Below are positions 1 to 48,113 of a stretch of DNA of 48,113 nucleotides, in pieces (position 1 is the first letter of the stretch; every line of letters begins with the position of its first letter). The DNA is from a virus. Made by a program: the position numbers and the translations under genes. Location of the stretch: positions 1 to 48,113 of the IMG/VR virus record IMGVR_UViG_3300023099_000010. One strand, 5' to 3'. Below the pieces are notes generated by a model, which was not told the origin of the DNA, did no database searches, and saw nothing but the letters and a program-made list of their open reading frames with translations.

Positions 1-12
1 ACTCTCGGTGGC

Positions 13-28
13 TAAGGTCTTTCCCTTA
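13..28 (-). ncRNA. tRNA-leader hairpin 1 (GAAAGA loop)
   Basis: Read on the minus strand: TGACG, stem TAAGG, loop GAAAGA, stem CCTTA, then 4 nt to the 5' end of the edge-spanning tRNA-Ile. Three more hairpins with other stem sequences but the same loop occupy the same place before other tRNAs (373-388, 47283-47298, 47948-47961). The function is unknown; a processing or transcription signal is an inference. Confidence 0.6.
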
Positions 29-29
29 C

Positions 30-222
30 GTCAAGCCCGTTCCGGAGGGGGCTAAACTCGGCCGCATGACGATACTAGGTGCGGTCCCGTAGAGCCCGTT
101 ACGAGGGCTAAGCGGGTCTGACTCCGGCTAACCCGGGGCCTTGTGGGCGTACCGGGTTCCCGTTTAGGGACCATGCTAGTTAGCGTGGGTAGTATTCGTC
201 CAGAATACGTACATCCCCCTTA
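30..222. other. structured non-coding region with repeated hairpins
   Basis: No open reading frame or foldable tRNA is convincing here. Several hairpins are visible, including AGCCC/GGGCT arms at about 34-53 and 91-109. These two lie in an imperfect direct repeat of about 20 bases that ends in GGGCTAA. Further hairpins are GGTTCCC/GGGACC near 155-172 and GTATTC/GAATAC near 191-207. It continues the tRNA locus, so it may be transcribed from the minus strand as structured RNA. Decayed tRNA genes are an alternative. Confidence 0.4.
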
Positions 223-294
223 AGGGAGTAAGGGAATCGAACCCATCATTACCCACAGTTGGCGGGGCCTTCTCTCAGCGAAAAGGTTCCCCGG
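222..294 (-). other. tRNA-like remnant plus strong RNA hairpin
   Basis: A T-arm-like element (GGG, TTCGATT, CCC on the minus strand) lies near 232-245, but I could not find a matching 5' acceptor strand or a canonical anticodon loop. Directly upstream on the minus strand, 264-292 folds as GGGG/CCCC plus a 7-bp stem with loop GCTGA. One pair is G-U in minus-strand RNA but C-A in plus-strand RNA, which supports a minus-strand transcript. This may be a degenerate tRNA or a structured spacer. Confidence 0.4.
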
Positions 295-368
295 TATAGT
301 AGGAGGGACTCGAACCCCCGACTTGACGCTTCCAAAGCGCCCACTCTACCAGACTGAGTTACTACTAT
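295..368 (-). tRNA. tRNA-Pro (TGG)
   Basis: Full cloverleaf on the minus strand: acceptor ATAGTAG/CTACTAT, D-stem ACTC/GAGT with GG in the loop, anticodon stem GGCGC/GCGTC and loop TTTGGAA (anticodon TGG), T-arm GGGGG/CCCTC with TTCGAGT, discriminator A. The CCA end is not encoded (CCG follows). Confidence 0.93.
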
Positions 369-372
369 ATGC

Positions 373-388
373 GCCCGTCTTTCCGGGC
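373..388 (-). ncRNA. tRNA-leader hairpin 2 (GAAAGA loop)
   Basis: Stem GCCCG/CGGGC around loop GAAAGA on the minus strand, 4 nt upstream of the tRNA-Pro 5' end. The preceding flank is CGACA, where the other three copies have TGACG. Confidence 0.6.
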
Positions 389-431
389 TGTCGTTTACAC
401 TTGGATTATCAATGAACAGGGCCGCTAAAGT

Positions 432-471
432 GGCTAGAGCGGGAAAGGAAAGAAGCGAAACCGCTCTAGCC
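432..471 (-). terminator. strong hairpin between early operon and tRNA cluster
   Basis: Eleven-base perfect arms GGCTAGAGCGG and CCGCTCTAGCC enclose an 18-nt purine-rich loop. It lies 30 bases beyond the stop of the last early gene (503) and before tRNA-Pro. No clear U-run follows on either strand, so it may be a processing site rather than an intrinsic terminator. Confidence 0.45.
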
Positions 472-502
472 TTCCCCTATTCTAGCCATCGTTCTCAGTC
501 TG

Positions 503-973
503 TCAAGTACCTTCCGGAACCGCCGAGAAGGTATATGCGACGTAGGGCTTACCTCCGGCGCTTGCGGGGGTCTTCATCTTGCCGTGAACCCGAATGACCG
601 TATCGGTGAAAAGCTGCTCCTCTAGCGCGGCTTCGATAGTCTTACCGATTTGGCCCGTAACGTTCTCCTTTACGGCCTTGGGGTCATTGGAGTCTACCCC
701 AAGAAGAGCGGCCGTAAGTGAAGCCAGGAGGGGCCCTACGATGGTGTCAATCTGGCCCAGAGGGACGTTGAACTGGCTCTCCGAGCCGACTTCCACTGCG
801 TCACAATCTGAGTCTACGACCTCGCACGTTCCGTAGAGCTTGAGGCTCGAGGGGAACTGAGGGTGTCGGCCTTCCTTGAACTTGACGATTTTAACCGTAT
901 GCGTGCCTGGGGGAAGGCCGTCCGCATATACGCCAGCCGGTTGTGCGTTATTGTAGCTATCGAAACGTCCCAT
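503..973 (-). CDS. conserved-looking hypothetical protein, possibly ssDNA-binding type
   Basis: A 156-residue soluble protein, last gene of the leftward early operon. The start has a good ribosome site (AGGAG, about 8 nt upstream). The sequence is rich in beta-type segments, with a G-rich opening (about residues 15-25) and a conserved-looking KxxxFKEGRHPQFPSSLKLYG stretch near residues 30-47. In many phages small proteins of this kind beside helicase and nuclease genes bind ssDNA (DUF669-like), but I cannot confirm that here. Confidence 0.7.
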   Translation of the reverse strand: MGRFDSYNNAQPAGVYADGLPPGTHTVKIVKFKEGRHPQFPSSLKLYGTCEVVDSDCDAVEVGSESQFNVPLGQIDTIVGPLLASLTAALLGVDSNDPKAVKENVTGQIGKTIEAALEEQLFTDTVIRVHGKMKTPASAGGKPYVAYTFSAVPEGT

Positions 974-1006
974 ATGTAAACTCCTAGTCGTGTCTTGTAT
1001 GAATGG

Positions 1007-1315
1007 TTAGAGAGTGGCGATAAACATGCCCAAGGCAGTTTCCGCAATTGCAAGGGCCCCACGTTCTACCATGATGGCCTTGGCCTCTTCCTTGGTAGCG
1101 GTCGGGGGCATGACCGGGATTTCTAGGTTGGCCTGAGCATCGATGATAGTTAGCGACATGTCGCATACCATCCCGAGGGCTTCTTTCATCTTCGGGTCTT
1201 CGGTTTGGTTCCAGAGCTTAGCGACCACGGTCGCGATAGCCGCGTTTCCGTTGGCAATGAACTTCTGGCATTCGTCGGGGCTGATAGCCTTGTAGGTAAC
1301 TTCTTTGCTGGACAT
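1007..1315 (-). CDS. hypothetical protein (102 aa)
   Basis: Start chosen at 1315 because AAGGAAAG lies 5-9 nt upstream; a longer reading to 1366 has no such site. Acidic, mostly helical, no membrane segment or recognisable motif. It sits between the sponge-like gene and the 156-aa protein in the early operon. Function unknown. Confidence 0.7.
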   Translation of the reverse strand: MSSKEVTYKAISPDECQKFIANGNAAIATVVAKLWNQTEDPKMKEALGMVCDMSLTIIDAQANLEIPVMPPTATKEEAKAIMVERGALAIAETALGMFIATL

Positions 1316-1362
1316 GTCTCTTTCCTTTCGGTTCCGGTAGTGTAAGCCCTGGGGCTGGGGAG

Positions 1363-6269: not shown

Positions 6270-8498
6270 ATGACCGACACGATTACTACCGAACAAGACC
6301 GACTCCGGGCACGCTTTCACATTCAGACCATTCCTATTTACGCTATCCAGGGTGGCAAGTGTGCTTGCGGCCATGCTCAGTGTAGCCCTTTGAAAGCGGC
6401 CAAGCACCCGATTTCGTGGTCTAGGGAGGCCAAGCCTGGGGAGCCATATGCCGTCAAGACAGGTAACGGACTGGCTGTACTCGACCTGGACCTTAAAGGC
6501 CGCTCTCTAGAAGAGGTTATCAAGCTCGTAGAGGACAACTTCGGTCCTATCCCTAAAACTTTCACTGTACGAACAGGCTCGGGTGGCGTCCACTTCTACT
6601 TCCGCACAGATACCCCTGTCAGGAACGATACCAACATCTTGGGCCCCAAGACAGGGGTAGACGTCCGAGGTGAGAACGGCATCGTCATTGGTCCGGGTAG
6701 CCCGCATCGCTCCGGCCGTGCCTACGAAATCATTTCGGATGAGCCTTTGGCCTACATGCCCGCGGCTTTGCTGGACTTGGTCCGTAAGAAAGTCATTCCC
6801 AAGGAAGAGAAGAACTATGTCAACCGGACCCCTCTTGAGGAAGGTCCCGAGCTCGAAGCGGCTGTATCCTTTTTCGTGCGCCGTATCTCGGAAGAAATGC
6901 CCCCTTCTATCGAAGGCCAAGAAGGGGATAAGGCCTTGTGGCAAGTAGCCAAGCAAGCAGCTTCTTTGAACCTCCCTCCGGAACTTAGCTGCGAACTCAC
7001 GCTACAGCACTTCAATCCCCGGTGTGAGCCGGCCTGGGACGAGAAGACGATTGAGCGGAAGATGAATCAGGCTTGGGAGAAATCCTACGTCCCTTCCGTG
7101 GATGCGGATACTATCAACTTCATTGCCAAGCGACGTCAACTGGCCATCGATGGCGAAACCCCCGAGGTCTTGAAGTTCGAAGTGCCGGATTTCGTCCGGA
7201 CCCGGAAGATTCCCGACCCGAACCATACCTACGACTACCTGGCCGTCTCGGGACTGGATAACGAGAAGCTGAAATCCCTTTCGGCCCCTCAGCTTGTCTA
7301 CGTCATGGCGAACCACCCGAGCTGGGATGGTGTGTGGCAATGGGATATCCGTTCGGAGTCCCTCGTTTGCGTTTGCCCTCCCTTGGAGCTGGACGCGGAA
7401 AGAGGTAGGGGGCTTACCGAGCGGGACAAGTTCGCCATTCGATGCTGGCTTAACGCTCAGGGGAGCTCGGCTACCGATAAGGATATCGAGTTGGCGGTAA
7501 ACGAAGCAGCTAGAGCTAATGGCTTTCACAGTATCCGGGAGTACCTAGATGCTCTGCCGGGGTGCGATATCAAGGAAGCCGAGCAAGTCTTCGACAAACT
7601 GGCCAAGGTTCTGTTTAGCGACGGGGCTCAAGAGATTGAGTCGGACTTCCTTAAGAAGTTCTGCATCGCCTCGGTTCGGCGTGCTTATCGGCCAGGGGAG
7701 CAAGTGGATACCATGCTCGTACTGTACGGGGCTCAGGGCTTGGGTAAGTCGTCTTTCGCGCGCATCCTGTTCGGGGAGGACAACTATCTAGAGCAGATGC
7801 CAGAGAAACTAGCAGGCCGGGACGCTAGCCATATGCTGGCTGGGAAGTGGTGTGTCGAGTTCGCTGAGCTGGAAACTATTTTGCGTTTGGACCAAAACGA
7901 GGTCAAAAGCTTCTTGACAAGGCGAATCGACGAATACCGCGCGTTCGGTAACGGAGCTCGTATCCGTACCCCTCGCGAGACGGTCTTTATCGGGACCACG
8001 AATGAACAAGACTTCCTCCGGGACTCCACGGGTAACCGTCGTTACTGGCCTGTCGAGGTGACCAAGAAACTGGACCTGGACCTGCTTACGGAAGCCAGGG
8101 ATACTATCTGGGGGGCCGCTAAGACCTTGGCCGAGTCGAATGAACCCCACTTCTACCATGACGAAAACTCCCCGGTCTTGGATGCCATCCGAGAGCGCTA
8201 TCTACGAGAGGATGAGTGGGCCGAGCCTATCTCTAAAGAGCTTGCGGGTCGGGACTTCGTTACAGGCTTGCAGATATTCATTGACGCTATCACTAAGGAT
8301 ACGAAAGAGGCTTTGCTGAAATACGACCGGAGAACCCAACTCCGGGTAGGCTCTATCCTCAGACAGCTAGGGTGCAAGAAGAAGACAAGGGTATGTAAAG
8401 ACGGAGTCAAGAGAACCGGGTACGAGACTCCGGACGCGATACGGAAACTCAAGATGTCGGCAAGCGGTAAGTCAGAAGCCGCAAACACGGACAGATAG
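6270..8498 (+). CDS. primase-polymerase fused to VapE-like SF3 helicase
   Basis: A 742-residue replication protein. Residues about 20-170 form an AEP/prim-pol domain with the VLDLDLKG acidic motif (70-77), SGGVHFYF (about 104-111) and a GVDVRGENGIVIGPGS segment; a Cys-rich CACGHAQC (31-38) may bind zinc. The C-terminal half is a VapE/SF3-type ATPase with Walker A YGAQGLGKSS near 487-496 and the FIGTTNEQDFLRD sensor region. It likely primes and unwinds phage DNA. GGAGG lies upstream of the start. An intrinsic terminator and the candidate origin follow directly. Confidence 0.92.
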   Translation: MTDTITTEQDRLRARFHIQTIPIYAIQGGKCACGHAQCSPLKAAKHPISWSREAKPGEPYAVKTGNGLAVLDLDLKGRSLEEVIKLVEDNFGPIPKTFTVRTGSGGVHFYFRTDTPVRNDTNILGPKTGVDVRGENGIVIGPGSPHRSGRAYEIISDEPLAYMPAALLDLVRKKVIPKEEKNYVNRTPLEEGPELEAAVSFFVRRISEEMPPSIEGQEGDKALWQVAKQAASLNLPPELSCELTLQHFNPRCEPAWDEKTIERKMNQAWEKSYVPSVDADTINFIAKRRQLAIDGETPEVLKFEVPDFVRTRKIPDPNHTYDYLAVSGLDNEKLKSLSAPQLVYVMANHPSWDGVWQWDIRSESLVCVCPPLELDAERGRGLTERDKFAIRCWLNAQGSSATDKDIELAVNEAARANGFHSIREYLDALPGCDIKEAEQVFDKLAKVLFSDGAQEIESDFLKKFCIASVRRAYRPGEQVDTMLVLYGAQGLGKSSFARILFGEDNYLEQMPEKLAGRDASHMLAGKWCVEFAELETILRLDQNEVKSFLTRRIDEYRAFGNGARIRTPRETVFIGTTNEQDFLRDSTGNRRYWPVEVTKKLDLDLLTEARDTIWGAAKTLAESNEPHFYHDENSPVLDAIRERYLREDEWAEPISKELAGRDFVTGLQIFIDAITKDTKEALLKYDRRTQLRVGSILRQLGCKKKTRVCKDGVKRTGYETPDAIRKLKMSASGKSEAANTDR

Positions 8499-8909: not shown

Positions 8910-10079
8910 ATGAGCTTCCACGTAGACTTCCGCGGCCCTCTTACTGGCGCTAAGACCATGCCGGATGGCACGCTAAGGGTTAAGGCCCATTTAGCTCGCA
9001 CTGGCATCCAGACCTATAACTACTCAGATGGCCGGACTGTCCGAGAGTACCGAGACGAAGCCGAGGTCTTCTCAGAGGACAGTCTCGACACCTTCCGAGG
9101 TGCGGCCCTGACTGTCGAGCATCCTAACGCCAAGGTAGAGCCCCGCTTGTGGCGCTCGGTAGCTGTGGGTCATGTAGGGGACGACGTCCGCAGGGATGGC
9201 AACCTGCTAGCCGCCACTCTTTATATCAAAGACGACGCAACCATTGCCCGGGTCAAGTCGGGCGAGCTCGTAGAAATCTCATGTGGCTATGACTGCAAGA
9301 TGGTTCCAGAGGCTGGCCGTACTGACTCAGGGGAAGAGTACGACGCAAGGCAAACCCAGGTGCGGGCTAACCATGTGGCCCTTGGCCCTGCTAACTGGGG
9401 CCGAGCTGGCCGTAACGTGCGGCTCTACCTCGACTCGAAAGAGACCCAGCCGGATTCGGCTAGTATTGCCTTTAGCACCACTAGCGAGGATTCATCTATT
9501 ATGACGGACGAAGAGAAGAAGGCCAAGGCCGAAGCAGACAAGAAAGCAGCCGAGGCTAAGGCCAAGGAAGAGGCGGACCGTAAAGAGTCCGAGCTCGCGG
9601 CCGAAAAGGCTCTAGCCGAGCAAGCGGCCAAGGTCCCGGCAGTAACCCCCGAAGCAGTCCCAGCCCCTACCCAGCCAGAGCCCGGCCAGGTCAAGCCCCC
9701 GGGTAACATTGACTCAGCCGATGCAGTCAAGTTCGATAGCACGGTAGACGAGCGACTAGAGGTACTCGATAGCGCACGCAAGGTCATCCCCGGCTTCGAC
9801 CACAAGGGTAAGTCCAATGCGCAAATCCGTCGGGAGGTTGTCGAGGCCAAGGGACTAAAGACTGACTCCAAGTCAGATGACTACGTAACCGCTCGCTTTG
9901 ACTCCCTCGTAGAGGAAGCCCTTAAGCAGGATGCGGCCGATGGCGCGCTAGGCAACGTTCGCACCGTGGCATCCAACCCTGTCGTAAAGACGGACAAGGC
10001 CGAAAGCGCGCGCGAGAAGATGGTACGAGAGAACAACGAAGCTTGGAAGAACAAGACCAAGCCCCGCGGCCAAAAGTAA
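8910..10079 (+). CDS. DUF2213 prohead protease fused to scaffold
   Basis: The N-terminal ~190 residues match the DUF2213 maturation-protease pattern: RDEAEVFSEDSLDTFRGA with TVEHP, VAVGHVGDDVR, GELVEISCGYDC and RANHVALGP. From Met198 (position 9501) the protein becomes a Lys/Glu/Ala-rich coiled coil typical of a scaffolding domain, followed by a Pro-rich linker and a helical tail. GAGG lies 13 nt before the internal ATG, so a shorter scaffold-only product (9501-10079) is possible, as in lambda C/Nu3. First gene of the late virion block. Confidence 0.85.
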   Translation: MSFHVDFRGPLTGAKTMPDGTLRVKAHLARTGIQTYNYSDGRTVREYRDEAEVFSEDSLDTFRGAALTVEHPNAKVEPRLWRSVAVGHVGDDVRRDGNLLAATLYIKDDATIARVKSGELVEISCGYDCKMVPEAGRTDSGEEYDARQTQVRANHVALGPANWGRAGRNVRLYLDSKETQPDSASIAFSTTSEDSSIMTDEEKKAKAEADKKAAEAKAKEEADRKESELAAEKALAEQAAKVPAVTPEAVPAPTQPEPGQVKPPGNIDSADAVKFDSTVDERLEVLDSARKVIPGFDHKGKSNAQIRREVVEAKGLKTDSKSDDYVTARFDSLVEEALKQDAADGALGNVRTVASNPVVKTDKAESAREKMVRENNEAWKNKTKPRGQK

Positions 10080-10110
10080 ACCGGCTAGTATAGCAATACA
10101 GAGGAATCAA

Positions 10111-10587
10111 ATGCCAGTTCAGACCACCTACAATCAGTTTAACCCGGTAGCCGTACCTGGTATGCTATTCGACTTTGCGAGCGATGCTAGTGGCATTGTC
10201 TCGTTTGAGTCGGCTACCGCACTACCAGCTGGCCGCTTCGTTTCCTTGGACGCTAACGGACGTGCGGTACTAGCCAACGGCTCGCTACCTATCATCGGCG
10301 TTACCGTCTACTCCGCGACCAAGTATCAGCAACCGAGCGGCTACCCGGCTAATACGATTGTTCCGATTCTACGCAAGGGACGCATCTTTGCAGAGAAGGC
10401 AGTTGGAGCTACGGCACCGGCCTTCGGTGTTATCGCTCAGCGCCACGCTTCGGACGGCACGGTTGTATCTACGGCCGGTGTCAACGTAGTCGGTGCCTCT
10501 GGCTACCAGCGCGGGACCACGGCCCAGCTCGTTATCCCCACCAACTGTGCGCTAGTCGAGCTTAACCTACCGCTCGTAGCGGCCTAA
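10111..10587 (+). CDS. DUF2190-like capsid cement/decoration protein
   Basis: A 158-residue Gly/Ala/Val-rich beta protein directly before the major capsid gene. The pattern ALPAGRFVSLDANGRAVLANG followed by IIGVTVYSA is typical of the small structural cement proteins of this family. AGAGGA lies 8 nt before the ATG, and a GGC-TAGTAT element lies further upstream. It probably stabilises the capsid surface. Confidence 0.75.
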   Translation: MPVQTTYNQFNPVAVPGMLFDFASDASGIVSFESATALPAGRFVSLDANGRAVLANGSLPIIGVTVYSATKYQQPSGYPANTIVPILRKGRIFAEKAVGATAPAFGVIAQRHASDGTVVSTAGVNVVGASGYQRGTTAQLVIPTNCALVELNLPLVAA

Positions 10588-10610
10588 TCCCTTACTTGGC
10601 TTAGAATAAT

Positions 10611-11606
10611 ATGAAACTAGATTCACTACAGCGATACTTTCAGACGGTAGGCCCCTCGGTCGACCCAACCGCACGTTGGGACGCTAACGAGTCCCTCGCA
10701 TTCGCTCGACAGCTTGAGTTCATCTATACCCAGACGTACGACGTCAAGTATGCGGACCTCAAGGCACGTACCCTCATCCCGGTCGATACCTCGGTACCGC
10801 CTGGCGCGGAGCTCTACTCGTACAAGGTCTTTAACGAGGTAGGTGAGGCCAAGCTCGTAGACGATTACGCAACCGACTTCCCCAATGTCGAGCTTTTCGG
10901 TACCGAGTCTTTTGGTAAGATTGTCTCGCTTGGTGACTCGTACCAATACAGCATTCAGGACATGCGGCGTGCTCAGCTAATGAACATGCCGCTACAGGCC
11001 AAGAAGGCTCTAGCCGCACGCCACGTTATCGAGCGTAAGCTTGACTACATCGCTTGTGTTGGCGCCCTAAACGGCACTGTCCCGGGCTTCGCTACGAATA
11101 CCAACGTACCGGCGCTTAGCTCGGCCTCGACTCCAGCCCTTACCGCGGGCACCTGGGCTAGCCGTGCAAACACCTCAGCGGGTAGCCAAACGATTATCAA
11201 TGACTTGCTCGTGGCCCAGCAGGACATCTTCACCAAGTCGCTCGGCTTGGCTGCCGGTCGGGACCTAGTCCTACCCCTAGCGGCTTACGCAGAGCTCGTA
11301 CGCCGGACCATTAGCCCGGACAACGGCTTTGACCAACGCACGCTTTTGGACTTCCTCCTGCAGACGGGCCGGTTCGATTCTATCGAGCCTTGGGTTGCCC
11401 TCGCTACGGCTGGCCCCGCGGCTGCCCCCCGAGGTGTCATCTACGACCGTAGCCCAGAGAACCTGCAGCTAGTCATTAGCCAGGATTTCGAACAGCTAGC
11501 CCCCCAGGCGGTTGGCATGACCTTCAAGGTTCTTTGCCATATGCGTACCGGTGGTGTAGAAATCTTCTACCCAATGACCATGCGGTACCTAGACGGTATT
11601 GCGTAA
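10611..11606 (+). CDS. major capsid protein (DUF2184-like)
   Basis: A 331-residue protein with the order expected of the DUF2184 HK97-fold capsid family: N-terminal helix with ARQLEFIYTQTYDVKYADLKAR (split here as residues ~29-50), SYKVFNEVGEAKLV, an E-loop-like FGTESFGKIVSLGDSYQYS, and a C-terminal FKVLCHMRTGGVEIFYP strand. It follows protease/scaffold and cement genes and ends at a strong terminator, consistent with very high expression. Confidence 0.88.
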   Translation: MKLDSLQRYFQTVGPSVDPTARWDANESLAFARQLEFIYTQTYDVKYADLKARTLIPVDTSVPPGAELYSYKVFNEVGEAKLVDDYATDFPNVELFGTESFGKIVSLGDSYQYSIQDMRRAQLMNMPLQAKKALAARHVIERKLDYIACVGALNGTVPGFATNTNVPALSSASTPALTAGTWASRANTSAGSQTIINDLLVAQQDIFTKSLGLAAGRDLVLPLAAYAELVRRTISPDNGFDQRTLLDFLLQTGRFDSIEPWVALATAGPAAAPRGVIYDRSPENLQLVISQDFEQLAPQAVGMTFKVLCHMRTGGVEIFYPMTMRYLDGIA

Positions 11607-16200: not shown

Positions 16201-16758
16201 ATGAAACAGATTCCCTCGCCTAACTTTTCCAAGGGTCGCAAGCGAGCCCCGCTAGTCATTGTCCTACACACGACCGAAAGCCCCGAGGTTCCCCAGGGCG
16301 CGGAACGTGTAGCTCAGAACTGGTTTGCGCTCAAGTCATCCAAGGTATCCGCGCACTACATCGTATCAAGTACGGAAGCCGTTCGATGCGTCAAGGAAGA
16401 GGATACGGCCTGGCACGCAGGCAAGGCCAACGGCTGGACCATTGGTATCGAAATGTGCGGCAAGGCAGGTCAATCGGCCTCGGACTGGGTCGACCCGTTT
16501 AGCAAACAGATGCTCATCCGCACGGCTCAGCTCGTAGCCGAGATTTGTGTACGCCATGATATCCCCGTAGCTCGGCTTCACCCCGGGGACTTGAAACTGG
16601 TAGCCGAGGGGAACGATATTCGAGGTATCTGTGGCCATGTGGACGTGTCCAAAGCCTTTGGGGGAACGCACTGGGACCCGGGTCCGGCCTTCCCATATTT
16701 GGAGTTCCTGCTTATGGTCAAGGGCTACGTAGACAGCCCGGCCCCGGAGAAGCTTTAA
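16201..16758 (+). CDS. endolysin: N-acetylmuramoyl-L-alanine amidase (Amidase_2 type)
   Basis: 185 residues of a single catalytic domain. The zinc ligands fit the amidase_2/PGRP fold: His in VLHTTESP (about 23), His in CGHVDVSKAFGGTHWDPGPAF (about 145) and the downstream Asp/Cys-site position, with HYIVSS and AWHAGKANG strands between. It cleaves the bond between N-acetylmuramic acid and L-alanine. There is no signal peptide, so release through a holin is expected, and no separate wall-binding domain is seen. Confidence 0.9.
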   Translation: MKQIPSPNFSKGRKRAPLVIVLHTTESPEVPQGAERVAQNWFALKSSKVSAHYIVSSTEAVRCVKEEDTAWHAGKANGWTIGIEMCGKAGQSASDWVDPFSKQMLIRTAQLVAEICVRHDIPVARLHPGDLKLVAEGNDIRGICGHVDVSKAFGGTHWDPGPAFPYLEFLLMVKGYVDSPAPEKL

Positions 16759-19525: not shown

Positions 19526-19532
19526 TCCCGGC

Positions 19533-19538
19533 TAGACT
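19533..19538 (+). promoter_or_regulatory. late -10 element before tail tube gene
   Basis: CGGC-TAGACT followed by 14 bases that include AGGAGGG, so this copy yields a short leader with a ribosome site rather than a leaderless start. Confidence 0.5.
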
Positions 19539-22240: not shown

Positions 22241-22241
22241 T

Positions 22242-29132: not shown

Positions 29133-29752
29133 TGCTTCCGGTTAAGAACACGGCCCACGTAGCTGAGGGCTTGGCTCTTCTTACCGAGCAATTCAAAGGC
29201 AAGCCGGTAATTGAGGGCATCCTAAAGGCTTGGCTGGCTCAAGTCCAGTCGGCCGAAGATGTAACTTTTGAAGTCATCCAAAGCCGAAACCTGCAGGGGG
29301 TTGGCGTACAGTTGGATATTCTGGGGTCCCTTGTAGGCGAGACTCGACAGGGCCGGACCGATGCGGAATACGCCCCTGCTATCGGGCTTCGTATCCAGGT
29401 CAATCAAAGCGATGGCTCTACTCGGGCCATCCTAGATATCATCAAAAACTTCCTAGGTCTGTATGGGCTGTCCGACTCTACTGTAGTCTACTCGGAATCC
29501 CAGCCAGCTCGGTTCCGGGTGGAGACGACTACTTTAACGACGGTCCGGGCAATGGCGCTGCTTCGTATCCTTCTACAGGCCAAGCCAGCCGGAGTAGCAC
29601 TAGAGTTCATTGGCAACGGGGACCCGGCCCCCGGCTCTACCGGGAATGAGATTATCTACGACCATGTAACCTCACTCCCGACCGTGCCCAGAGGCTTTGC
29701 CCACACGACGGGGCTCCCCGATAACGTGGCCTCTAGCGTACTAGTATACTAA
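29132..29752 (+). CDS. gp48-like baseplate protein (DUF2612)
   Basis: 206 residues. VQLDILGSLVGETRQGRTDAEY with the following IGLRIQVNQSDGSTRAIL matches DUF2612/gp48 proteins that join wedge to fibre. A GTG three bases upstream is an alternative start. The Val/Tyr-rich C-terminus leads straight to the fibre gene. Confidence 0.82.
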   Translation: MLPVKNTAHVAEGLALLTEQFKGKPVIEGILKAWLAQVQSAEDVTFEVIQSRNLQGVGVQLDILGSLVGETRQGRTDAEYAPAIGLRIQVNQSDGSTRAILDIIKNFLGLYGLSDSTVVYSESQPARFRVETTTLTTVRAMALLRILLQAKPAGVALEFIGNGDPAPGSTGNEIIYDHVTSLPTVPRGFAHTTGLPDNVASSVLVY

Positions 29753-33106: not shown

Positions 33107-34594
33107 ATGGGCATCTTCGACCGCTTCCGTAAACCGGCCCCCGTGGCTCCAAGTCCTAACCCAGTGGTGGCACGTAATGACGCTTGGGTCAACCCTGCAA
33201 CGGGCGTAGGCTCCCTTCGGGACAAGTCGGCTATCGGCTTCTTCCTCCCCGACCAACCGCTTACCGATTCCGAGCTATCTGCCCTCTACTACCATGACGA
33301 CTTGGCGGCCCGAATCATCGATGAACGGGTAGACCAGGCCTTTCGAAAAGGGTACCGGCTAGAAGGCCTGGACCAAGACAAGCTAGACGAGCTCTACGAG
33401 GAAGCCGAACGTATCGAGGTCGACCGTCGCTTTAAGGAAGCCTGGCGTTGGGGTCGTCTCTACGGGTCTTCGATTCTAATCGTAGGGGCCCTTGACGGCC
33501 AGATGCCTACCGCACCTATGGGGGAGAACGTCCGTAGCCTGGCCTTCTTGAACCCGGTAGACAAGCGCACACTTCGGATTTACTCGCGCTATGCCAACCC
33601 CCTCCTACCTCAGTATGGGGAACCGAACCTCTACCAAATCAACCCCGAGCCAGTTACCGCCATCGACATGACCGGCACGAGCTCAGCTGGCCAGGAGACT
33701 TGGAACGGATACCTTATTCACGAGTCTCGGACGATTCGCTTTGATGGCATCGAAACCGACCTACAGGAAAGCCAGAAGCTCGGGGGGTGGTCCTACTCAG
33801 TTCTGCAGAGGGCCTACAAGGTCTTACGCCAGTTCGGCTTGTCTTTCGGCTCGGCCGCTATCCTCATTGAAGAGGCCAGCCAGGGTGTCTTTAAAATCGA
33901 CGGCCTGATTTCGATGCTGGCCGGCAACGAAAGAGACGCACTCCTAGAGCGTATGACCCTTGTGGACATGTCCAAGGGTGCGGCCCGGTCTATCCTGGTA
34001 GACGCAGAGAACGAAGACTACACCCGTATCCCGGTCCAGTTCGCTGGCTTGCCGGATATGCTCGACCGCATCATGCAACGCCTGGCCGCTGCTACCGGTA
34101 TGCCCGTTACTTTGCTTATGGGTCAAAGCCCGGCCGGGATGAATGCCACGGGGGAGAGCGACTTCCGGCAATGGTACGACTCGATTGCGTCCGAGCAAGA
34201 GAAGGTTCTAGGCCCTCGGCTGCTAAAGCTCTACAAGCTAATTGGCCAGGGGTTGGGCATTGATACCGAAGGCCTGGAAGTTGCTTGGGAACCGTTGGAA
34301 GAGGAAAGCCCCAAGGATAAGGCTACCTTGTATTCCACCGTAGCCGCTGCGGACGTGGCCTACGTGAACGCGGGCGTATTCCAGCCTCAAGAAATTGCCA
34401 TCGCCCGAGCTGGCCAGGGGGCCTACGACCCGTTCGCAGTTCCGGCTATCGACGTGGCTAAACTAGAAGCCGAGTTGGCCGAGCCCCCTCCCGAGCAATT
34501 TACCGACCCGACGGAAGCCAATGCCCAAACTGGACAAGAAGACCCGAGCCAAAGCCAAAATCCAATCGAGAAAGATTCGGCTAGCGACACGTAG
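33107..34594 (+). CDS. portal protein (DUF1073-like)
   Basis: 495 residues. The order ARIIDERVDQAFRKGYRL, WRWGRLYGSSILIVGA, NPVDKRTLRIYSRY, GLPDMLDRIMQRLAAATGMP and MGQSPAGMNATGESDFRQWY is characteristic of DUF1073 portals. Forms the dodecameric ring for DNA entry. Overlaps the head-morphogenesis gene by 74 bases. DUF1073 domains are also fused to Acb1 enzymes in some phages; no such domain is seen here. Confidence 0.9.
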   Translation: MGIFDRFRKPAPVAPSPNPVVARNDAWVNPATGVGSLRDKSAIGFFLPDQPLTDSELSALYYHDDLAARIIDERVDQAFRKGYRLEGLDQDKLDELYEEAERIEVDRRFKEAWRWGRLYGSSILIVGALDGQMPTAPMGENVRSLAFLNPVDKRTLRIYSRYANPLLPQYGEPNLYQINPEPVTAIDMTGTSSAGQETWNGYLIHESRTIRFDGIETDLQESQKLGGWSYSVLQRAYKVLRQFGLSFGSAAILIEEASQGVFKIDGLISMLAGNERDALLERMTLVDMSKGAARSILVDAENEDYTRIPVQFAGLPDMLDRIMQRLAAATGMPVTLLMGQSPAGMNATGESDFRQWYDSIASEQEKVLGPRLLKLYKLIGQGLGIDTEGLEVAWEPLEEESPKDKATLYSTVAAADVAYVNAGVFQPQEIAIARAGQGAYDPFAVPAIDVAKLEAELAEPPPEQFTDPTEANAQTGQEDPSQSQNPIEKDSASDT

Positions 34595-35348
34595 GGCTGA
34601 AAACATCTACGTAGGCAAGCTCCGGGCGATTGCAGCTGGCTACAAGGCAGTATACGACAGGTACCTAGTTCGGTCGGTCAAAGCCGTGGTAGCCGTCCGG
34701 GGTGACGCGGTAAAGGGCCCAAAGGCCAAGGCCACAGGGAATCCCTTCGTGGACTTCGACAGCCTAGAGACAGCCGTACAGGCCCAGCTAAAGGCCATGG
34801 TAGGGAAGGCCTTCGATGTCATGTGGGATTCGGTCTACAAGGCCCATATCGAGAACTCGACTTTGCCCCGGATTACTATCGGCCAAGCCGCCGGCCCTGG
34901 CTCACGTCTGGTACAGCTGTACGAGAAGAAGCGGGATGACTCGATTAAGTTGGTAGAGAACGCGCAACGGGTCTACTCGGACCAAGTCCGGGAGGTGTTC
35001 TCGGACCCGGCCAACTTCGGGCTACGGGTAGAAGAGCTACAGGCCAAGCTGATAGAACGCGGCAACGTTTCGGAAAGCCGAGCCGAGCTCATTGCCAGGG
35101 ACCAAACGTTAAAAACCCTCGGCGGAATCAATGAAGTCCGCCAGAGGGAAGCAGGGGTTAACTCGTATACGTGGTCAACTAGCAATGACGAGCGCGTCCG
35201 AGACGAGCACGCTGAACTAGAAGGCCAGGTTTTTAGCTGGGATAACCCGCCGGAACCTGGCAATCCGGGCGAAGACTACCAATGTCGATGCATTGGTGTA
35301 CCATACATCGAAGAGTTAGCCGACCTAGATAACCTAGAGGCTTTCTAG
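34521..35348 (+). CDS. Mu F-like minor head protein
   Basis: 275 residues. Lys/Arg-rich start, then the Mu F core: VSESRAELIARDQTLKTLGGINE, WSTSNDERVRDEHAELEGQVF and the terminal DYQCRCIGVPYI. It starts within the portal gene in another frame, which is typical. Binds portal or capsid interior early in head assembly. Confidence 0.88.
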   Translation: MPKLDKKTRAKAKIQSRKIRLATRRAENIYVGKLRAIAAGYKAVYDRYLVRSVKAVVAVRGDAVKGPKAKATGNPFVDFDSLETAVQAQLKAMVGKAFDVMWDSVYKAHIENSTLPRITIGQAAGPGSRLVQLYEKKRDDSIKLVENAQRVYSDQVREVFSDPANFGLRVEELQAKLIERGNVSESRAELIARDQTLKTLGGINEVRQREAGVNSYTWSTSNDERVRDEHAELEGQVFSWDNPPEPGNPGEDYQCRCIGVPYIEELADLDNLEAF

Positions 35349-37457: not shown

Positions 37458-38891
37458 CTAGACCGAGCCGGTCAAGCCCCCCATGACACTTTTCGCATTC
37501 TTCATAGCTTCCGCGTACGAGCGGTTCCGGTCGGCCAAGAAGGTAAGGGCCTGGCTAGTGGCGTCTACTTGGTCGTCATGGGAGGCCGTAGGAAACCTAG
37601 TCATTTCGTCCACGTAGTCTTTCGTCCAGTCGGCCTCGACTAGGTAGACGTTCCCCGCTTCGAAGAAGGCCGTAACCGCGTTGGCCCTGGCAATCTTACC
37701 GCCTTCCGGGTTTACGAGGATGAGGCCAGATACCTCCCGCTTCAAGTGGTCGACTACGGCCGGGCCGTTGGCCTTGTCTTCTACGACCTTGGCGCGGACC
37801 TTGGGCCACTTCTTCGAAAGGTCTTTCACGGCCTGACAAGCCGCGGTAAACGCCATCTTGGCGCGGACTTGGTCTACGAGGTAGTAGCTAGACCCTTGGC
37901 GCAACCAGACCTGGCCTACGACCCAGTCCGAGCCGTCCGAGTCTTTGAAGCTCATATCCCAGGATTGGCACGAGTCGTCCCAACGGTCAGGGAGCTGAGC
38001 GCACCTGCCCGATAGCCACTTGTGGAAAAAGATAAGACCTTCCGCCGGGGCCGGGTCTTGTTGGTACTGAGCCGAGTAGTGCCTTGGCCCTAGGCCGCCG
38101 GAACCCTTCAACGTGGCTACGGTCTTTTCGTTGTGCCTGGCCTTCCAGAAGATTTCCCCGAGCTCGGTCCGGGGGTCTTCGGGGTGCGCTTGTTCGGGCT
38201 GGAACTCTAGCGGGATTCGAACTACCTCCCATTCGTGGGGCTCGGTTCGAAGCAGGTAGCCGCACAAGTCGTTCTCGTGCAAGCGTTGCATGATAATGAC
38301 GCGGGCAACCGTGAGTTGGTTACCTCGGCTGAGAATCGTCGACTTCCACCAATTCACGACTTCCTCTAGGGACTTGTCGTTAACTTCCTTGGGCTTGGAC
38401 GGGTCGTCTACTACCAAGATATCCGGGTGTTCACCGGTCGTCTTACCCTTGACCGAGGTAGCGAAACGGGACCCGCCTCGGTCCGTCTTGAAGTCCGCGC
38501 TAGCTGCGTCCGGTGGCACGTTGAACACGGACCCCCAACGCTCGCGGAACCACTTGGAGCTCACGAGGTCCAGGGTTCGCTTGCCGTCGCGTCGGGTAAG
38601 TCGGGCGTCGAAAGACGTATACAGGAACTTACGAGAAGGGTTCTGCAGCCAATCCCAGGCGTCCCAGCACACGCAAACCAAGGTCGACTTGGCTGAGCCT
38701 GGCGGGACGTTGATAATCAGCCGCTTGCACTCACCCCGGGAGACTGACTCAAGCTTCTCGCAAATGAGCTTGATATGCCAGTTATCCTGGAACTCTACAC
38801 TGGGCTCGATTACGTGCCATGCGAGCTTGACGAAATCGTATAGTGACCTACGGCCGAGCTCGCGTTCGATGTCAATTCGAGAGGGTTTCAC
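37458..38891 (-). CDS. terminase large subunit
   Basis: 477 residues, GTG start. ATPase: Walker A VPPGSAKST (62-70), Walker B ILVVDDP (about 153-159), then the SRGNQLTVARVIIMQRLHENDL coupling region. Nuclease: QSWDMSFKD with its Asp, the VVEDKANGPAVVDHL segment and ASHDDQVDA near the end. It cuts and pumps DNA into heads. It lies directly downstream of a phage sigma gene, with a 20-base overlap. Confidence 0.93.
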   Translation of the reverse strand: MKPSRIDIERELGRRSLYDFVKLAWHVIEPSVEFQDNWHIKLICEKLESVSRGECKRLIINVPPGSAKSTLVCVCWDAWDWLQNPSRKFLYTSFDARLTRRDGKRTLDLVSSKWFRERWGSVFNVPPDAASADFKTDRGGSRFATSVKGKTTGEHPDILVVDDPSKPKEVNDKSLEEVVNWWKSTILSRGNQLTVARVIIMQRLHENDLCGYLLRTEPHEWEVVRIPLEFQPEQAHPEDPRTELGEIFWKARHNEKTVATLKGSGGLGPRHYSAQYQQDPAPAEGLIFFHKWLSGRCAQLPDRWDDSCQSWDMSFKDSDGSDWVVGQVWLRQGSSYYLVDQVRAKMAFTAACQAVKDLSKKWPKVRAKVVEDKANGPAVVDHLKREVSGLILVNPEGGKIARANAVTAFFEAGNVYLVEADWTKDYVDEMTRFPTASHDDQVDATSQALTFLADRNRSYAEAMKNAKSVMGGLTGSV

Positions 38892-43370: not shown

Positions 43371-43798
43371 AGCTGAATCCTCCCGTCAAAGTCCTGCATC
43401 TTAACTCCGTCTACGTAGACCGTAGCCTTGTCGTAAGTCTTAACGCCCCGGGACAAGCTTGCATGCATCATCTTAAGGGTAATCAATGAATACTCGGGGG
43501 TCAAAATCGGCTCAGGCGCTAGGGGGCTACCCTCTCGGGTTCGCTTGAAGGCCCAGCACAGGTTGCAGAGAAGCAGACCCTTGAACACATACAGTCCCTT
43601 GCGCTCGTCGTTACACCGGTCGCACAGATGCACCGGCCCTTCTTTGGCCTTCGCTTCTTTGAGCTCATACCAAGTCATGGGAGGAATACCAGCGGCCCGG
43701 CTGGCTACACTGCAGTCCAGCTTATGACTACGCTTGCCCTTGCACTCTGGGCAAGGGGGCTTGTCGTCTTTTTCCGTTAGTGTCCTAATCGTTCGCAT
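43367..43798 (-). CDS. zinc-ribbon protein (143 aa)
   Basis: Three Cys pairs: CPECKGKRSHKLDC (about 16-29), CDRCND (about 59-64) and CNLCW (about 77-81), suggesting two zinc sites. A beta-rich C-terminal end closes the protein (DKATVYVDGVKMQDF). It starts inside the 3' end of the polymerase gene. Likely nucleic-acid associated; function unknown. Confidence 0.68.
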   Translation of the reverse strand: MRTIRTLTEKDDKPPCPECKGKRSHKLDCSVASRAAGIPPMTWYELKEAKAKEGPVHLCDRCNDERKGLYVFKGLLLCNLCWAFKRTREGSPLAPEPILTPEYSLITLKMMHASLSRGVKTYDKATVYVDGVKMQDFDGRIQL

Positions 43799-44720
43799 AA
43801 TTCCAGGCCTTTCCGTCTCGCTTGTAGAATTGCTGGGCCCCTTGTGCCAAGCCTAGGGGGCTGCCGTGCTCGTCGTAAACCCAATCGTCCGAGTCCCAGG
43901 GCACAAGCGTACCAGAGGAATCGAATACGTCAAAGGCTTGCTTGGACCATACCCGCATTAGGGTAGGGTCTAGTTTCGCGAAGTCAACTGGCACGTGGGT
44001 TAGAAACCGGTTGGCCGTGTCCACCATAATACGTGCCACTTCTATAGCCACGGCCGCGGCCTGGGGTCCGTCTGGCGTTTCTACGATAACTTCGTCGTGA
44101 ATCATGTTGACGGCCCGAGAGCCGAACAGGGCAGACCCCGGGGTTCGCACGTAGCACCGGCGCACGATTTCGTAGAAAGCACTCTTCGCAATGTCCGCGC
44201 CAAGTCCTTGGAAGTTGGAGTTACAAGCCGCGGTGAACGAACAACCGGAACGGACGCGCTCGGACACGAGTTGAACGATGGTAATGCCGTCGTCCGTCTG
44301 TCGGTCGCTAATGTATTTGAAGTAGAGGACCATTTCCGGCCAACGCTTGAGCCATTGCGCTCGGAGCTCCCTGGCCTGGTCTTCGGTAATCAGTACCTTG
44401 TAGGACTTCCAAGCGAAGTGGCAAAGGCGTTTCGGTCCCAGCCCTCCCGGATAGCCGAAGTTACAAACCTTGGCCGTTTGGCGGGCCATATCTACGTCAT
44501 GCCTCTTCTTGTTAGCCTTGGCATCCTCATAGGAAATACCCAGGATTTGGGCCCCTAGAGCCAGGTGGGGGTCAAGACCGCTTTTCAGTGCCTCTCCCAG
44601 CTCCGAGAACCCTACCAGCCTGTAGCAGGCTTCAGCCAGGGTGTAGAGCTCTAGTTGCGGGTAGTCTGCCTGAGCGAAGACGAAGCCTTCTCGGGGGACG
44701 ATGCACTCTCGGATGCCCAT
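43785..44720 (-). CDS. family A DNA polymerase, C-terminal fragment (palm/fingers)
   Basis: 311 residues. Contains motif A FAQADYPQLELYTLAEA, motif B RQTAKVCNFGYPGGLG and motif C IHDEVIVE. Begins at GIRECIVPREG, exactly where the upstream fragment stops in family A alignments. Its ATG overlaps the HNH stop (TAATG) and has AAAGG about 9 nt upstream, so it can be translated on its own. It presumably joins the N-terminal fragment to make a split polymerase. Confidence 0.85.
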   Translation of the reverse strand: MGIRECIVPREGFVFAQADYPQLELYTLAEACYRLVGFSELGEALKSGLDPHLALGAQILGISYEDAKANKKRHDVDMARQTAKVCNFGYPGGLGPKRLCHFAWKSYKVLITEDQARELRAQWLKRWPEMVLYFKYISDRQTDDGITIVQLVSERVRSGCSFTAACNSNFQGLGADIAKSAFYEIVRRCYVRTPGSALFGSRAVNMIHDEVIVETPDGPQAAAVAIEVARIMVDTANRFLTHVPVDFAKLDPTLMRVWSKQAFDVFDSSGTLVPWDSDDWVYDEHGSPLGLAQGAQQFYKRDGKAWNYAND

Positions 44721-45157
44721 TACTTCTGACCTTTCATGTAGGCTAGTAGCGCTTCTGCTTGGGCTACAGTCATATCGGATTTCATGGTATTGGCTCTGTA
44801 TGAGATTACCCTGACGTTACCTGCAACGTATCCGAGTTCAGGGATGACCTTGTCAAGAGAGGGCGAGTTGCTCCTGATTCCCTCCCCCGTGGTGGAGTAG
44901 TCTATGAAGACTCCCAGAATAGGACACACTTCGGGCAATTCGATTACGTGCACCTCACAAGGTAAACCTGAGGCTTTAGCTCTAGTTTTAGCCCGACTCC
45001 AAGCTTTGGCGACCCAGAACGATTGGGGATTTTCGCTTCGTCTTTTCTTGTCCGAGCGGATTTGATTGGCTCTGAGGACATCTTTCTTTCGATGGTAGTA
45101 GTCCTTGCGCCAGGCTTTTAGAGCCTTCTTAGATTCTGCAGATTCGGATTTGAGCAT
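44720..45157 (-). CDS. HNH/EDxHD-type homing endonuclease inserted in polymerase gene
   Basis: 145 residues. A basic helical N-terminus is followed by EVCPILGVFIDY, SPSLDKVIPELGYVAGNVRV and ISYRANTMKSDMT, a layout I know from small phage homing endonucleases (SLDR...GY..GNV...N..K). Its ATG lies within the end of the polymerase N-terminal gene with AGGA upstream. The inserted DNA is almost wholly filled by this gene, leaving little room for an intron. It likely spreads into uninterrupted polymerase genes. Confidence 0.72.
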   Translation of the reverse strand: MLKSESAESKKALKAWRKDYYHRKKDVLRANQIRSDKKRRSENPQSFWVAKAWSRAKTRAKASGLPCEVHVIELPEVCPILGVFIDYSTTGEGIRSNSPSLDKVIPELGYVAGNVRVISYRANTMKSDMTVAQAEALLAYMKGQK

Positions 45158-46266
45158 GTAGTTCGTCCTGTATCAGCCAACCCGAAACGACAGTGGATGG
45201 GCATCTGTACACCCTTTCGCAGCATTTCGATATCGTTTTTCATGACCTTAGAGAAGGTCGAAAAGTCGGCATACGCTTCTAGTAAGTCATCTTCGGTGAC
45301 CTTGCAAGCGTCCGAGTCTAGCGAAACCTCTCCCGTGGCTGTCACACGGAGCGGGATTCCCTTCTCTTTGCAGACGGCAATCATCCTCTCTTTGGCAGCC
45401 TTGGTGTCTCGGGTGCCGTCAGCTCTTACTAGTCCCGCTTCCGTGAGCTCAGATTTAAGCCGTTCATACTCGGCCGAAACTTGCTCCTCAAGTTTATCTA
45501 CCGAAGCCAACGAAGTGCGCAAGCCCCAGCACTCAGCCAGGCGGAACGCGAAGTAGTACCGAGCTTGATTGAACTGGTCTACTAAGAGCTCCCCTGCGTA
45601 GCGTTCCTGCGCGTAGTAGACGTCCGAGGTAGCTACCGCGTCTTCCTTGGGGTAACGTAGGACCCCCATGGGGTCGGGGTTGGGTTGGAGCATCTTGGCT
45701 GCTTTGGCCCATTGCGGGTCCGTGTAGCCATACTGTGAGGCCCAATAGGCTACGGCCTTGTCCGTGTGCACGAAGGGTGCAACGTAGTCCCGCGCAAACT
45801 CTGGCCAGGCCTCTAGGGGTACGTGCTGAAACGCCCCGTAGAACATACGCCAGCTATCCTTTTCAAGTCGGGTCCCCCGGTACCGGCTCGATAGGTCGTC
45901 TAGGCCGTACTTGTGGGTAATCCACTTCCCATCCGACCCCATCCGACCCCGGAAGCAGCCGAGGCCAATATCGATAAGCTGCTGACGCAACATGGTACAG
46001 GTAACGCGGTTTTCGTCGTAGGCCTTGAACACCTTAGGGATAAGGCTTGGCCGGTAAGCGCACATAACGACCATATCGAAGGCTACGTTATGCCCGACGA
46101 AAAGCCGGCCCTCATCTAGCCAGCTCTCGAATAGGTCCGCGCCTTCCTTGTGGTGTGCCAGGGCTGGCCGTCCGTCGTCGCCCATATAAGACACACATAC
46201 GAGCTCGGGGGCGTTGACCCCCGGCCGGATGAGGTGGGTCTCGGTATCAAAGATGGCTAGTTTCAC
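45118..46266 (-). CDS. family A DNA polymerase, N-terminal fragment (3'-5' exonuclease and thumb)
   Basis: 382 residues, GTG start in GTGA. DnaQ-type exonuclease: IFDTETH (Asp7, Glu9), GHNVAFDM (Asp64) and the later PKEDAVATSDVYY. The thumb follows and the protein ends at GRTTCSNPNLQNLRR, the conserved stretch just before motif A, plus one extra Leu from the insert. The catalytic palm is in the separate gene 43785-44720. Confidence 0.87.
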   Translation of the reverse strand: MKLAIFDTETHLIRPGVNAPELVCVSYMGDDGRPALAHHKEGADLFESWLDEGRLFVGHNVAFDMVVMCAYRPSLIPKVFKAYDENRVTCTMLRQQLIDIGLGCFRGRMGSDGKWITHKYGLDDLSSRYRGTRLEKDSWRMFYGAFQHVPLEAWPEFARDYVAPFVHTDKAVAYWASQYGYTDPQWAKAAKMLQPNPDPMGVLRYPKEDAVATSDVYYAQERYAGELLVDQFNQARYYFAFRLAECWGLRTSLASVDKLEEQVSAEYERLKSELTEAGLVRADGTRDTKAAKERMIAVCKEKGIPLRVTATGEVSLDSDACKVTEDDLLEAYADFSTFSKVMKNDIEMLRKGVQMPIHCRFGLADTGRTTCSNPNLQNLRRL

Positions 46267-47031: not shown

Positions 47032-47060
47032 AAGGTAACCACGAATACGACTAGAGCCAA
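47032..47060 (-). promoter_or_regulatory. operon promoter overlapping tRNA-Thr 3' end
   Basis: TTGGCT (47055-47060), 17-bp spacer, TACCTT (47032-47037), six bases to the GTG at 47025. The -35 is the last bases of the tRNA acceptor strand. Confidence 0.6.
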
Positions 47061-47126
47061 GACCGGGAATCGAACCCGGGTCTTCTGATTACGAAACAGA
47101 GGTGTTACCATTGACACCATCTTGGC
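47055..47126 (-). tRNA. tRNA-Thr (CGT)
   Basis: Acceptor GCCAAGA/TCTTGGC, D-stem GTGT/ACAC, T-arm CCGGG/CCCGG with TTCGATT. Anticodon loop TTCGTAA gives CGT; the closing pair of that stem is T-T, so the call is slightly less certain. Discriminator T. No CCA encoded. Confidence 0.8.
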
Positions 47127-47131
47127 AAAAG

Positions 47132-47202
47132 AGTCTACGGGCTGGCTTCGAACCAACTCCCGCCGGTACCCGGACGTGCACCCTACTACACCACACATAG
47201 AC
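47132..47202 (-). tRNA. tRNA-like gene, anticodon uncertain (possibly Gly ACC)
   Basis: Acceptor GTCTATG/CGTAGAC and D-stem GTGT/GCAC pair well, and T-arm GTTGG/CCAGC has loop TTCGAAG, with one extra C before the acceptor. The anticodon stem has a G-G mismatch; obeying U33 gives ACC. A degenerate or unusual tRNA. Confidence 0.5.
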
Positions 47203-47206
47203 TCAG

Positions 47207-47279
47207 CGATTCCCCCAGGATTCGAACCTGGTACCCGTAGGTTAACAACCTATTGCTATACCATTTCAGCTTGGGAATC
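47207..47279 (-). tRNA. tRNA-Asn (GTT)
   Basis: Acceptor GATTCCC/GGGAATC, D-stem GCTG/TAGC, anticodon loop TTGTTAA (GTT), T-arm CCAGG/CCTGG with TTCGAAT, discriminator G as in other tRNA-Asn. Confidence 0.92.
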
Positions 47280-47282
47280 AGA

Positions 47283-47298
47283 GCTCGTCTTTCCGAGC
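47283..47298 (-). ncRNA. tRNA-leader hairpin 3 (GAAAGA loop)
   Basis: Stem GCTCG/CGAGC around GAAAGA on the minus strand, preceded by TGACG, 3 nt before the tRNA-Asn 5' end. Confidence 0.6.
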
Positions 47299-47355
47299 CG
47301 TCAAGGTCTTTATTTCGGCCATACCCAGGGCACTCTCTAAGGGATGACATCCCAG

Positions 47356-47433
47356 TGGAATAGTCGGGAATCGAACCCGAGTAGCCAGGGTTCCCGACGT
47401 GCGGGTTTACCTTGGCGCTAACCTTTCTATCCC
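47356..47433 (-). tRNA. tRNA-like gene, anticodon unclear
   Basis: Acceptor GGGATAG/CTATTCC and T-arm TCGGG/CCCGA with TTCGATT are good. The middle forms a tall hairpin (GCCA...TGGC with CCCG/CGGG) instead of a normal anticodon arm; a 7-nt loop would read ACG (Arg) with C at position 33. May be a decayed tRNA. Confidence 0.45.
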
Positions 47434-47626
47434 TAGTTGCCCGAATCGAAGACAGGTCGGGCGCCTGCTAGCTAGTCCGTTGTATCTCCAATTGCCCTAC
47501 TTGGTATCACGCGGCGTAGGGCCAGACCACGAAGCGCTGGTTTTATCGGATTGATTACCGCCAGGTGGCTCAATTGGGGATGCGGCACGATACTTGTTTA
47601 GACTCGTGAACCCAGCTCGCACCCAG
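47434..47626. other. non-coding spacer in tRNA cluster
   Basis: No tRNA could be folded with confidence. Visible hairpins: GCCCGA/TCGGGC (about 47438-47461) and CACGA/TCGTG (about 47586-47608, 13-nt loop). D-arm-like strings (CAATTGG) occur on both strands. Perhaps remnants of lost tRNAs. Confidence 0.35.
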
Positions 47627-47696
47627 GGAGTCGTACGGGAATCGAACCCGCGCAAGGAAGGGACACAACCTTCCCGGTAACCACTACCTACGACTC
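47627..47696 (-). tRNA. tRNA-His (GTG)
   Basis: Acceptor GAGTCGT/ACGACTC, short D-loop, anticodon stem GAAGG/CCTTC with loop TTGTGTC (GTG), T-arm GCGGG/CCCGT. Discriminator C, the mark of tRNA-His. The tRNA-Leu 3' end lies 3 bases away. Confidence 0.9.
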
Positions 47697-47698
47697 AG

Positions 47699-47774
47699 TG
47701 CCAGAAGAGGGATTCGAACCCCCACTTAACCGAGCTTGAATCGGTTGCCTCTACCTAGATTGGGCTACTCTGGC
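47699..47774 (-). tRNA. tRNA-Leu (CAA) with short variable arm
   Basis: Acceptor GCCAGAG/TTCTGGC, anticodon stem ACCGA/TCGGT, loop TTCAAGC (CAA), T-arm GGGGG/CCCTC. The variable region is only about 5 nt, although leucine tRNAs normally have a long arm, so charging identity deserves a check. Confidence 0.78.
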
Positions 47775-47778
47775 TTGG

Positions 47779-47852
47779 TTGACGGCCTAGGATTCGAACC
47801 TAGAACCTCGGGAATCAGAATCCCGCACACTATCCGATTGTGTTAGCCGTCA
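47779..47852 (-). tRNA. tRNA-Gln (CTG)
   Basis: Acceptor TGACGGC/GCCGTCA, D-stem ACAC/GTGT, anticodon stem CGGGA/TCCCG with loop TTCTGAT (CTG), discriminator A. CCA is present in the DNA at 47776-47778, overlapping the spacer before tRNA-Leu. Confidence 0.92.
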
Positions 47853-47862
47853 AGAAAGAAAG

Positions 47863-47941
47863 TGCCTAGAGAGGGACTTGAACCCCCACGCGTAAGCATC
47901 GGTTTCTAAGACCGACGTGTCTGCCATTCCACCACCTAGGC
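47863..47941 (-). tRNA. tRNA-Leu (TAG)
   Basis: Acceptor GCCTAGG/TCTAGGC, anticodon stem TCGGT/ACCGA with loop CTTAGAA (TAG), a longer variable region as in class II tRNAs, T-loop TTCAAGT, discriminator A. Confidence 0.9.
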
Positions 47942-47947
47942 TCAATA

Positions 47948-47961
47948 GCGGTCTTTCCCGC
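47948..47961 (-). ncRNA. tRNA-leader hairpin 4 (GAAAGA loop)
   Basis: Stem GCGG/CCGC with GAAAGA loop, preceded by TGACG on the minus strand, 6 nt before the tRNA-Leu(TAG) 5' end. The rest of 47962-48042 holds nothing I recognise. Confidence 0.6.
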
Positions 47962-48042
47962 CGTCAGAAACCTTTGCCAAGGTAGCGAACCGTTGTCTAT
48001 TCCAACTGTCTTTGCGTTGACCAACTAGTATTGTCGCCTCAG

Positions 48043-48113
48043 TCCGAGAGGGTAGAATTGAACTACCATTTCCAGGTTATCGGCCTGGCGTGCTAAACCG
48101 TTCTACTACTCTC
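48043..48113 (-). tRNA. tRNA-Ile (GAT), cut by the window edge
   Basis: T-arm, anticodon arm (CCAGG/CCTGG) and five bases of the acceptor stem are visible on the minus strand. The missing two acceptor bases are supplied by positions 7-8 if the ends are joined, giving CCGAGAG/CTCTCGG. The loop CCGATAA gives anticodon GAT but has C instead of the near-universal U at position 33. The D-stem pairs poorly (two of four pairs). A GAAAGA-loop hairpin lies just upstream at 13-28 in the joined sequence. Confidence 0.75.

Follow-up and report, generated by a model that had tools for sequence, protein, structure and literature searches.

Phage genomes that carry no GATC have been described before; for instance, the tetranucleotide is completely absent from the staphylococcal kayviruses phage K and fRuSau02 (PMC5618024), and the haloviruses HF2, Hardycor2 and Serpecor1 are myoviruses that lack it as well (PMC7911831). 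Near-complete elimination is typical of orthodox Type II sites and is enriched in non-temperate dsDNA phages, and the restriction-site elimination class takes in sites whose observed/expected ratio is under 0.1 and whose expected number is 15 or more (Rusinov et al. 2018, PMC6286503). The stretch of DNA analysed here, which we call the window, is the whole IMG/VR virus record IMGVR_UViG_3300023099_000010 (48,113 bp, 56.2% GC), and by exact count it holds zero GATC on both strands against 142-152 expected, a value within that class.

An earlier note on this DNA had reported that GATC was absent, had put the number of sites due by chance at about 180, had pointed to the abundance of CTAG as a sign that the effect was specific, and had proposed that an exact tetranucleotide count set against a Markov expectation should return 0-2 GATC and no palindrome similarly depleted. 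The absence, the specificity and the result of that count all hold, while the figure of about 180 stands as a zero-order expectation and is lowered by the other null models, to 142.1 under a maximal-order Markov model built from trinucleotide frequencies and to 151.5 +/- 11.0 in 100 dinucleotide-preserving shuffles. The next lowest palindromic tetranucleotides are TATA, AATT and GTAC (observed/expected 0.49, 0.60 and 0.66), all others stand at 0.88 or above, and CTAG occurs 278 times against 280 expected. The one-step neighbours of GATC are in excess (GATA/TATC 1.68-fold, GATT/AATC 1.46-fold), as expected if GATC has repeatedly been resolved by a change of an outer base. Since all 16 NGATCN contexts are empty, each being expected 3.9-15.5 times, the avoided site is the bare GATC tetranucleotide, and on the same ground we rejected longer sites that contain it (BamHI, BglII, PvuI, HIP1) as the sole cause.

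The counter-selection acts on the DNA and not on protein or codon usage. Across the 55 ORFs analysed, aspartate is encoded as GAT in 0 of 145 cases when the next codon begins with C (219 of 614 elsewhere), isoleucine as ATC in 0 of 98 when the preceding codon has G as its last base (365 of 513 elsewhere), and TCN serine is never preceded by a codon with GA at its end; GATC has therefore been purged from all three of its frame placements. When synonymous codons were shuffled within genes, coding sequence alone was expected to hold 146 +/- 8.8 sites (z = -16.6), with a minimum of 115 in 200 shuffles, and together with the dinucleotide shuffles this excludes chance. The roughly 7.3 kb outside the analysed ORFs, including the tRNA cluster, hold 0 GATC where about 27 would be expected. 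Site specificity at the level of DNA, as required of the elimination class, was thus found in both the codon contexts and the synonymous shuffles.

The window is an environmental bacterial virus and by its gene content (Table 1) a lytic-type myovirus with a contractile tail, complete or nearly so; family scans also identified a SNF2-like helicase and a PD-(D/E)XK exonuclease. Among the records of the phage collection none is related to the window in nucleotide sequence. Both contig ends (48108-48113 and 1-6) carry the same six bases, ACTCTC, and when the ends are merged they restore a full tRNA-Ile acceptor stem (CC-GAGAG with CTCTC-GG), for which reason we consider the genome probably complete and circularly permuted, though the record is classed as linear. 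The polymerase gene, uninterrupted in the relatives L001 and L002 discussed below, is here split into two ORFs, one ending in LQNLRRL and the other starting with MGIRECIVPR, with the HNH-type ORF inserted beside the catalytic motif; a group I intron was rejected as there was no Rfam match. The ORF at 31142-31603 (minus strand), which adjoins a putative tail-fibre ORF (29754-31145), is predicted to encode a small lipoprotein and carries a metalloprotease motif of the matrixin-like (M10) type.

Table 1. Features of the window, with coordinates, strand and basis of assignment
Feature	Position	Strand	Basis or remark
GATC-free phage genome, whole record	1..48113		exact count 0 GATC
Prim-Pol / VapE-like primase-helicase	6270..8498	+	PF05272 2.7e-55, PF09250 1.4e-20; phrog_1313
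Head module	8910..11606	+	phrog_530, phrog_563, phrog_264
Maturation protease (head module)	8910-10079	+	
Structural protein (head module)	10111-10587	+	
Major head protein (head module)	10611-11606	+	
Amidase endolysin	16201..16758	+	PF01510 6e-23
Contractile tail module (sheath, tape measure, baseplate hub, wedge)	18191..29752	+	phrog_205, phrog_8125, phrog_196, phrog_120, phrog_6
Endonuclease VII/HNH-type ORF	20849-21616		weak PADLOC 'Type II restriction enzyme' match, 2.7e-8
Portal and MuF-like head morphogenesis module	33107..35348	+	
Portal	33107-34594	+	phrog_146 4.5e-101
Approximate site of the sole GATC in relative L001	33253..33256		alignment; window has GGTC, minus strand
MuF-like head morphogenesis protein	34521-35348	+	phrog_324 1.1e-42
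Terminase large subunit	37458..38891	-	phrog_38 1.1e-93
Family A DNA polymerase, two ORFs	43785..46266	-	PF00476 7.9e-21
HNH-type ORF splitting the polymerase	44720-45157		phrog_3322
tRNA cluster (Thr, Asn, His, Leu, Gln, Leu, Ile), GATC-free	47054..48113	-	

Relatives were found by way of the terminase large subunit. Two close ones, L047 (20.8 kb) and L001 (14.7 kb), are contigs of sample 3300023314 that together align over most of the window genome with 94-95% nucleotide identity in the longer blocks; L047 has 0 GATC and L001 a single one, in its portal gene. Over 28.2 aligned kb and 1,665 substitutions, the window and these two contigs differ by one GATC, whereas the same substitutions placed at random produce 27.7 +/- 5.0 GATC differences (minimum 14 in 100 simulations), and none of 15 control palindromes shows a comparable deficit. 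Selection against GATC is therefore continuing. The counter-selection is complete, GATC-specific and ongoing, and it spares no reading frame and no flank context, extends to non-coding DNA and is not seen in most of the related phages; the strong GATC-specific counter-selection that the earlier note had deduced is upheld by the codon contexts, the synonymous-shuffle null and the close-relative comparison alike.

Among more distant relatives the lack of GATC is confined to certain lineages, and GATC content varies sharply between family members that share about 40-55% protein identity. The relative L002 (IMGVR_UViG_3300016665_000232), which is 46% identical to the window in the terminase large subunit and 45% in the MuF protein, has 0 GATC in 17.9 kb (38-68 expected), and its longer version L053 has 0 in 20.2 kb (38-77 expected for the two contigs). 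Six relatives at a similar distance from the window (L052, L055, L140, L143, L145 and L147) carry GATC at or above the zero-order expectation, and we accordingly rejected the idea that the lack of GATC is a compositional trait of the whole family. Maximum-likelihood trees group L002 with the GATC-rich L055 and/or L140, apart from the window, for portal (100/99), terminase (100/99), polymerase (96/93) and MuF (100/98), and the helicase tree gives the same placement more weakly (87/92). GATC would therefore have undergone two or more losses, or a single loss followed by massive regain in L055 and L140; as judged from these trees, the purge seems to have more than one origin in this virus family. 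Further relatives are partially depleted (L066/L105 13 against 63 expected, L054 17 against 47). A 4.8-kb contig, L119, also appeared to lack GATC but was set aside, being generally poor in GAT and ATC trinucleotides. Two relatives of 43-45% GC, L014 and L010, show multi-site avoidance: CCGG, CGCG and GGCC are entirely absent, GCGC occurs 0-1 times, and GATC is also reduced.

We think it likely that the window phage escapes a GATC-specific host nuclease by carrying no GATC, that is, by restriction-site elimination. The agent, we infer, is a host Type II restriction-modification system of the MboI/DpnII/Sau3AI class, which cuts unmodified GATC. Hosts carrying such a nuclease would keep selecting for removal of the site, and since a single GATC would leave the whole incoming genome open to cutting, elimination and not mere reduction would be the outcome. 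With no recognisable methyltransferase to protect its own DNA, the phage would escape by loss of the site. Family scans of the window ORFs recognised no DNA methyltransferase, so self-protection by a phage-encoded GATC methyltransferase was not found, and they returned no known anti-restriction gene; as the genome is probably complete, the missing methyltransferase is meaningful, though many of the small ORFs match no family, and an as yet unrecognised protective gene could lie among them. Nor did the Pfam and PHROGs scans find an integrase, again with small unmatched ORFs remaining, which agrees with the non-temperate dsDNA phages in which elimination is enriched, a trait that is not required. 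The earlier note had named host restriction enzymes of the Sau3AI/MboI or DpnI types as known causes: restriction remains the best-supported reading, albeit an inferred one, and the former types fit it, while DpnI fits less well, since its cutting is confined to methylated GATC and phage DNA that is unmodified would escape it. Dam/MutH incision, a rival taken up below, was not among the causes that the note named.

The same depletion is predicted whichever agent reads GATC, and for this reason a Type II enzyme, MutH and the others are inseparable by sequence alone. A portal alignment across 84,980 genomes returned only seven loci, none of which gave a host, the best being a 39% match in an 'uncultured proteobacterium' MAG; tRNA similarity gave generic matches and no host, no tail-fibre homologues were found, and sample numbers in papers likewise led to no host. 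The distant portal relative L132 (39% identical) lies in MAG G001, whose phylum, perhaps the Myxococcota by our presumption, has genomes of up to 13.4 Mb that are GC-rich. Within this phylum (379 genomes) MutH occurs in 129, Dam in 215 and DpnII-family enzymes in only 3, and a MutH that was checked is clearly orthologous to that of E. coli (8e-71), which suggests, from gene content, that Dam/MutH repair exists outside the Gammaproteobacteria. These counts lend some weight to an alternative in which no restriction system is needed: MutH of the Dam/MutHLS pathway might nick GATC that is unmethylated or hemimethylated while phage DNA replicates, or repair directed by GATC might be harmful in some other way, as in the documented cause of GATC avoidance in enterobacteriophages, among them phiX174 (PMC5014478). 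We nevertheless regard it as unlikely to be the cause here, in that the link to the phylum consists of a single MAG portal of 39% identity, which does not establish the phylum as the host's, and the loci of related phages found there are rich in GATC. The fuller proposition, that GATC was purged independently at least two times in an uncultured myovirus family through Dam/MutH-type incision in hosts outside the Gammaproteobacteria, strikes us as quite improbable; if true, it would make methyl-directed repair a barrier to phages beyond the enterobacteria.

Alternatively, hosts with a nuclease that depends on Gm6ATC (DpnI-type, Type IIM/IV) might alternate with Dam-methylating hosts, so that progeny of the latter would be cut in the former. 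Of the 46 phages with a host that encodes a GATC Type IIM enzyme, all indeed have GATC under-represented, but the authors credit the avoidance mainly to Type II systems (PMC6286503), and the immunity of unmodified phage DNA makes the alternation of host types a necessity; we hold this to be very improbable. A phage-encoded GATC nuclease directed at host or competitor DNA, from which the phage would be protected by lacking the site, might be sought in the two HNH-type ORFs of Table 1, one of them with its weak restriction-enzyme match, but both match endonuclease VII or homing-type families and look mobile, the one within the polymerase is a recent insertion that is absent at the same place in L001, and zero genes are exclusive to both GATC-free lineages (L002 being partial), all of which leaves such a nuclease a very slight chance. 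Some phosphorothioate-based Dnd-type systems recognise GATC-type motifs, and another GATC-reading host system of this kind might be imagined, but Dnd-type systems modify a fraction of their sites only, which fits total elimination less well, and we give the proposal little credence. Chance, or digestion of the library at GATC, has next to no probability: a 48-kb fragment without a site expected every 320 bp cannot result from digestion, recoding at the codon level and the enriched GATA and GATT show an evolved sequence, and L001, a separate contig, keeps one internal GATC.

Restriction-site elimination by a host Type II enzyme thus remains the reading we prefer, and as a case from nature in which a site has been eliminated completely, the window is exceptionally clean. 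The relatives at 94-95% identity make the strength of ongoing selection measurable (1 GATC difference against about 28), and because they do so, and because family members differ so sharply in GATC, the GATC status of a genome is usable as a marker of the host's defence where phage families are uncultured. The recurrence of the purge suggests that phages in these environments meet GATC-cutting enzymes as a barrier again and again.

Set beside the described systems, the window resembles phage K and fRuSau02 in being a lytic myovirus genome without GATC; theirs is explained by host restriction endonucleases and they infect a known Gram-positive host, whereas the window has no nucleotide relatives in the phage collection and our searches returned no host for it. 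HF2, Hardycor2 and Serpecor1 lack CTAG too, unlike the window, where CTAG is at expectation and the proteome lacks an acidic bias (D+E 11.9% against K+R 11.6%), and a haloarchaeal virus of the HF2 group was rejected on both counts. With phiX174 the window shares the complete absence of GATC, but that genome measures 5.4 kb, for which some 20 sites would be expected, and its hosts have Dam/MutH (PMC5014478), as compared with 142-152 sites in 48 kb here. The likeness to the elimination class of Rusinov et al. 2018 is close, with an observed/expected ratio of 0, an expectation far above 15 and a dsDNA phage without an integrase, although members of that class have a cognate host enzyme and the window's is a proposed one. 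Complete absence of GATC is a known escape strategy, to which the window adds a case in an uncharacterised myovirus group; its contribution is that selection still under way could be put into numbers, and that members of a single family seem to have converged.
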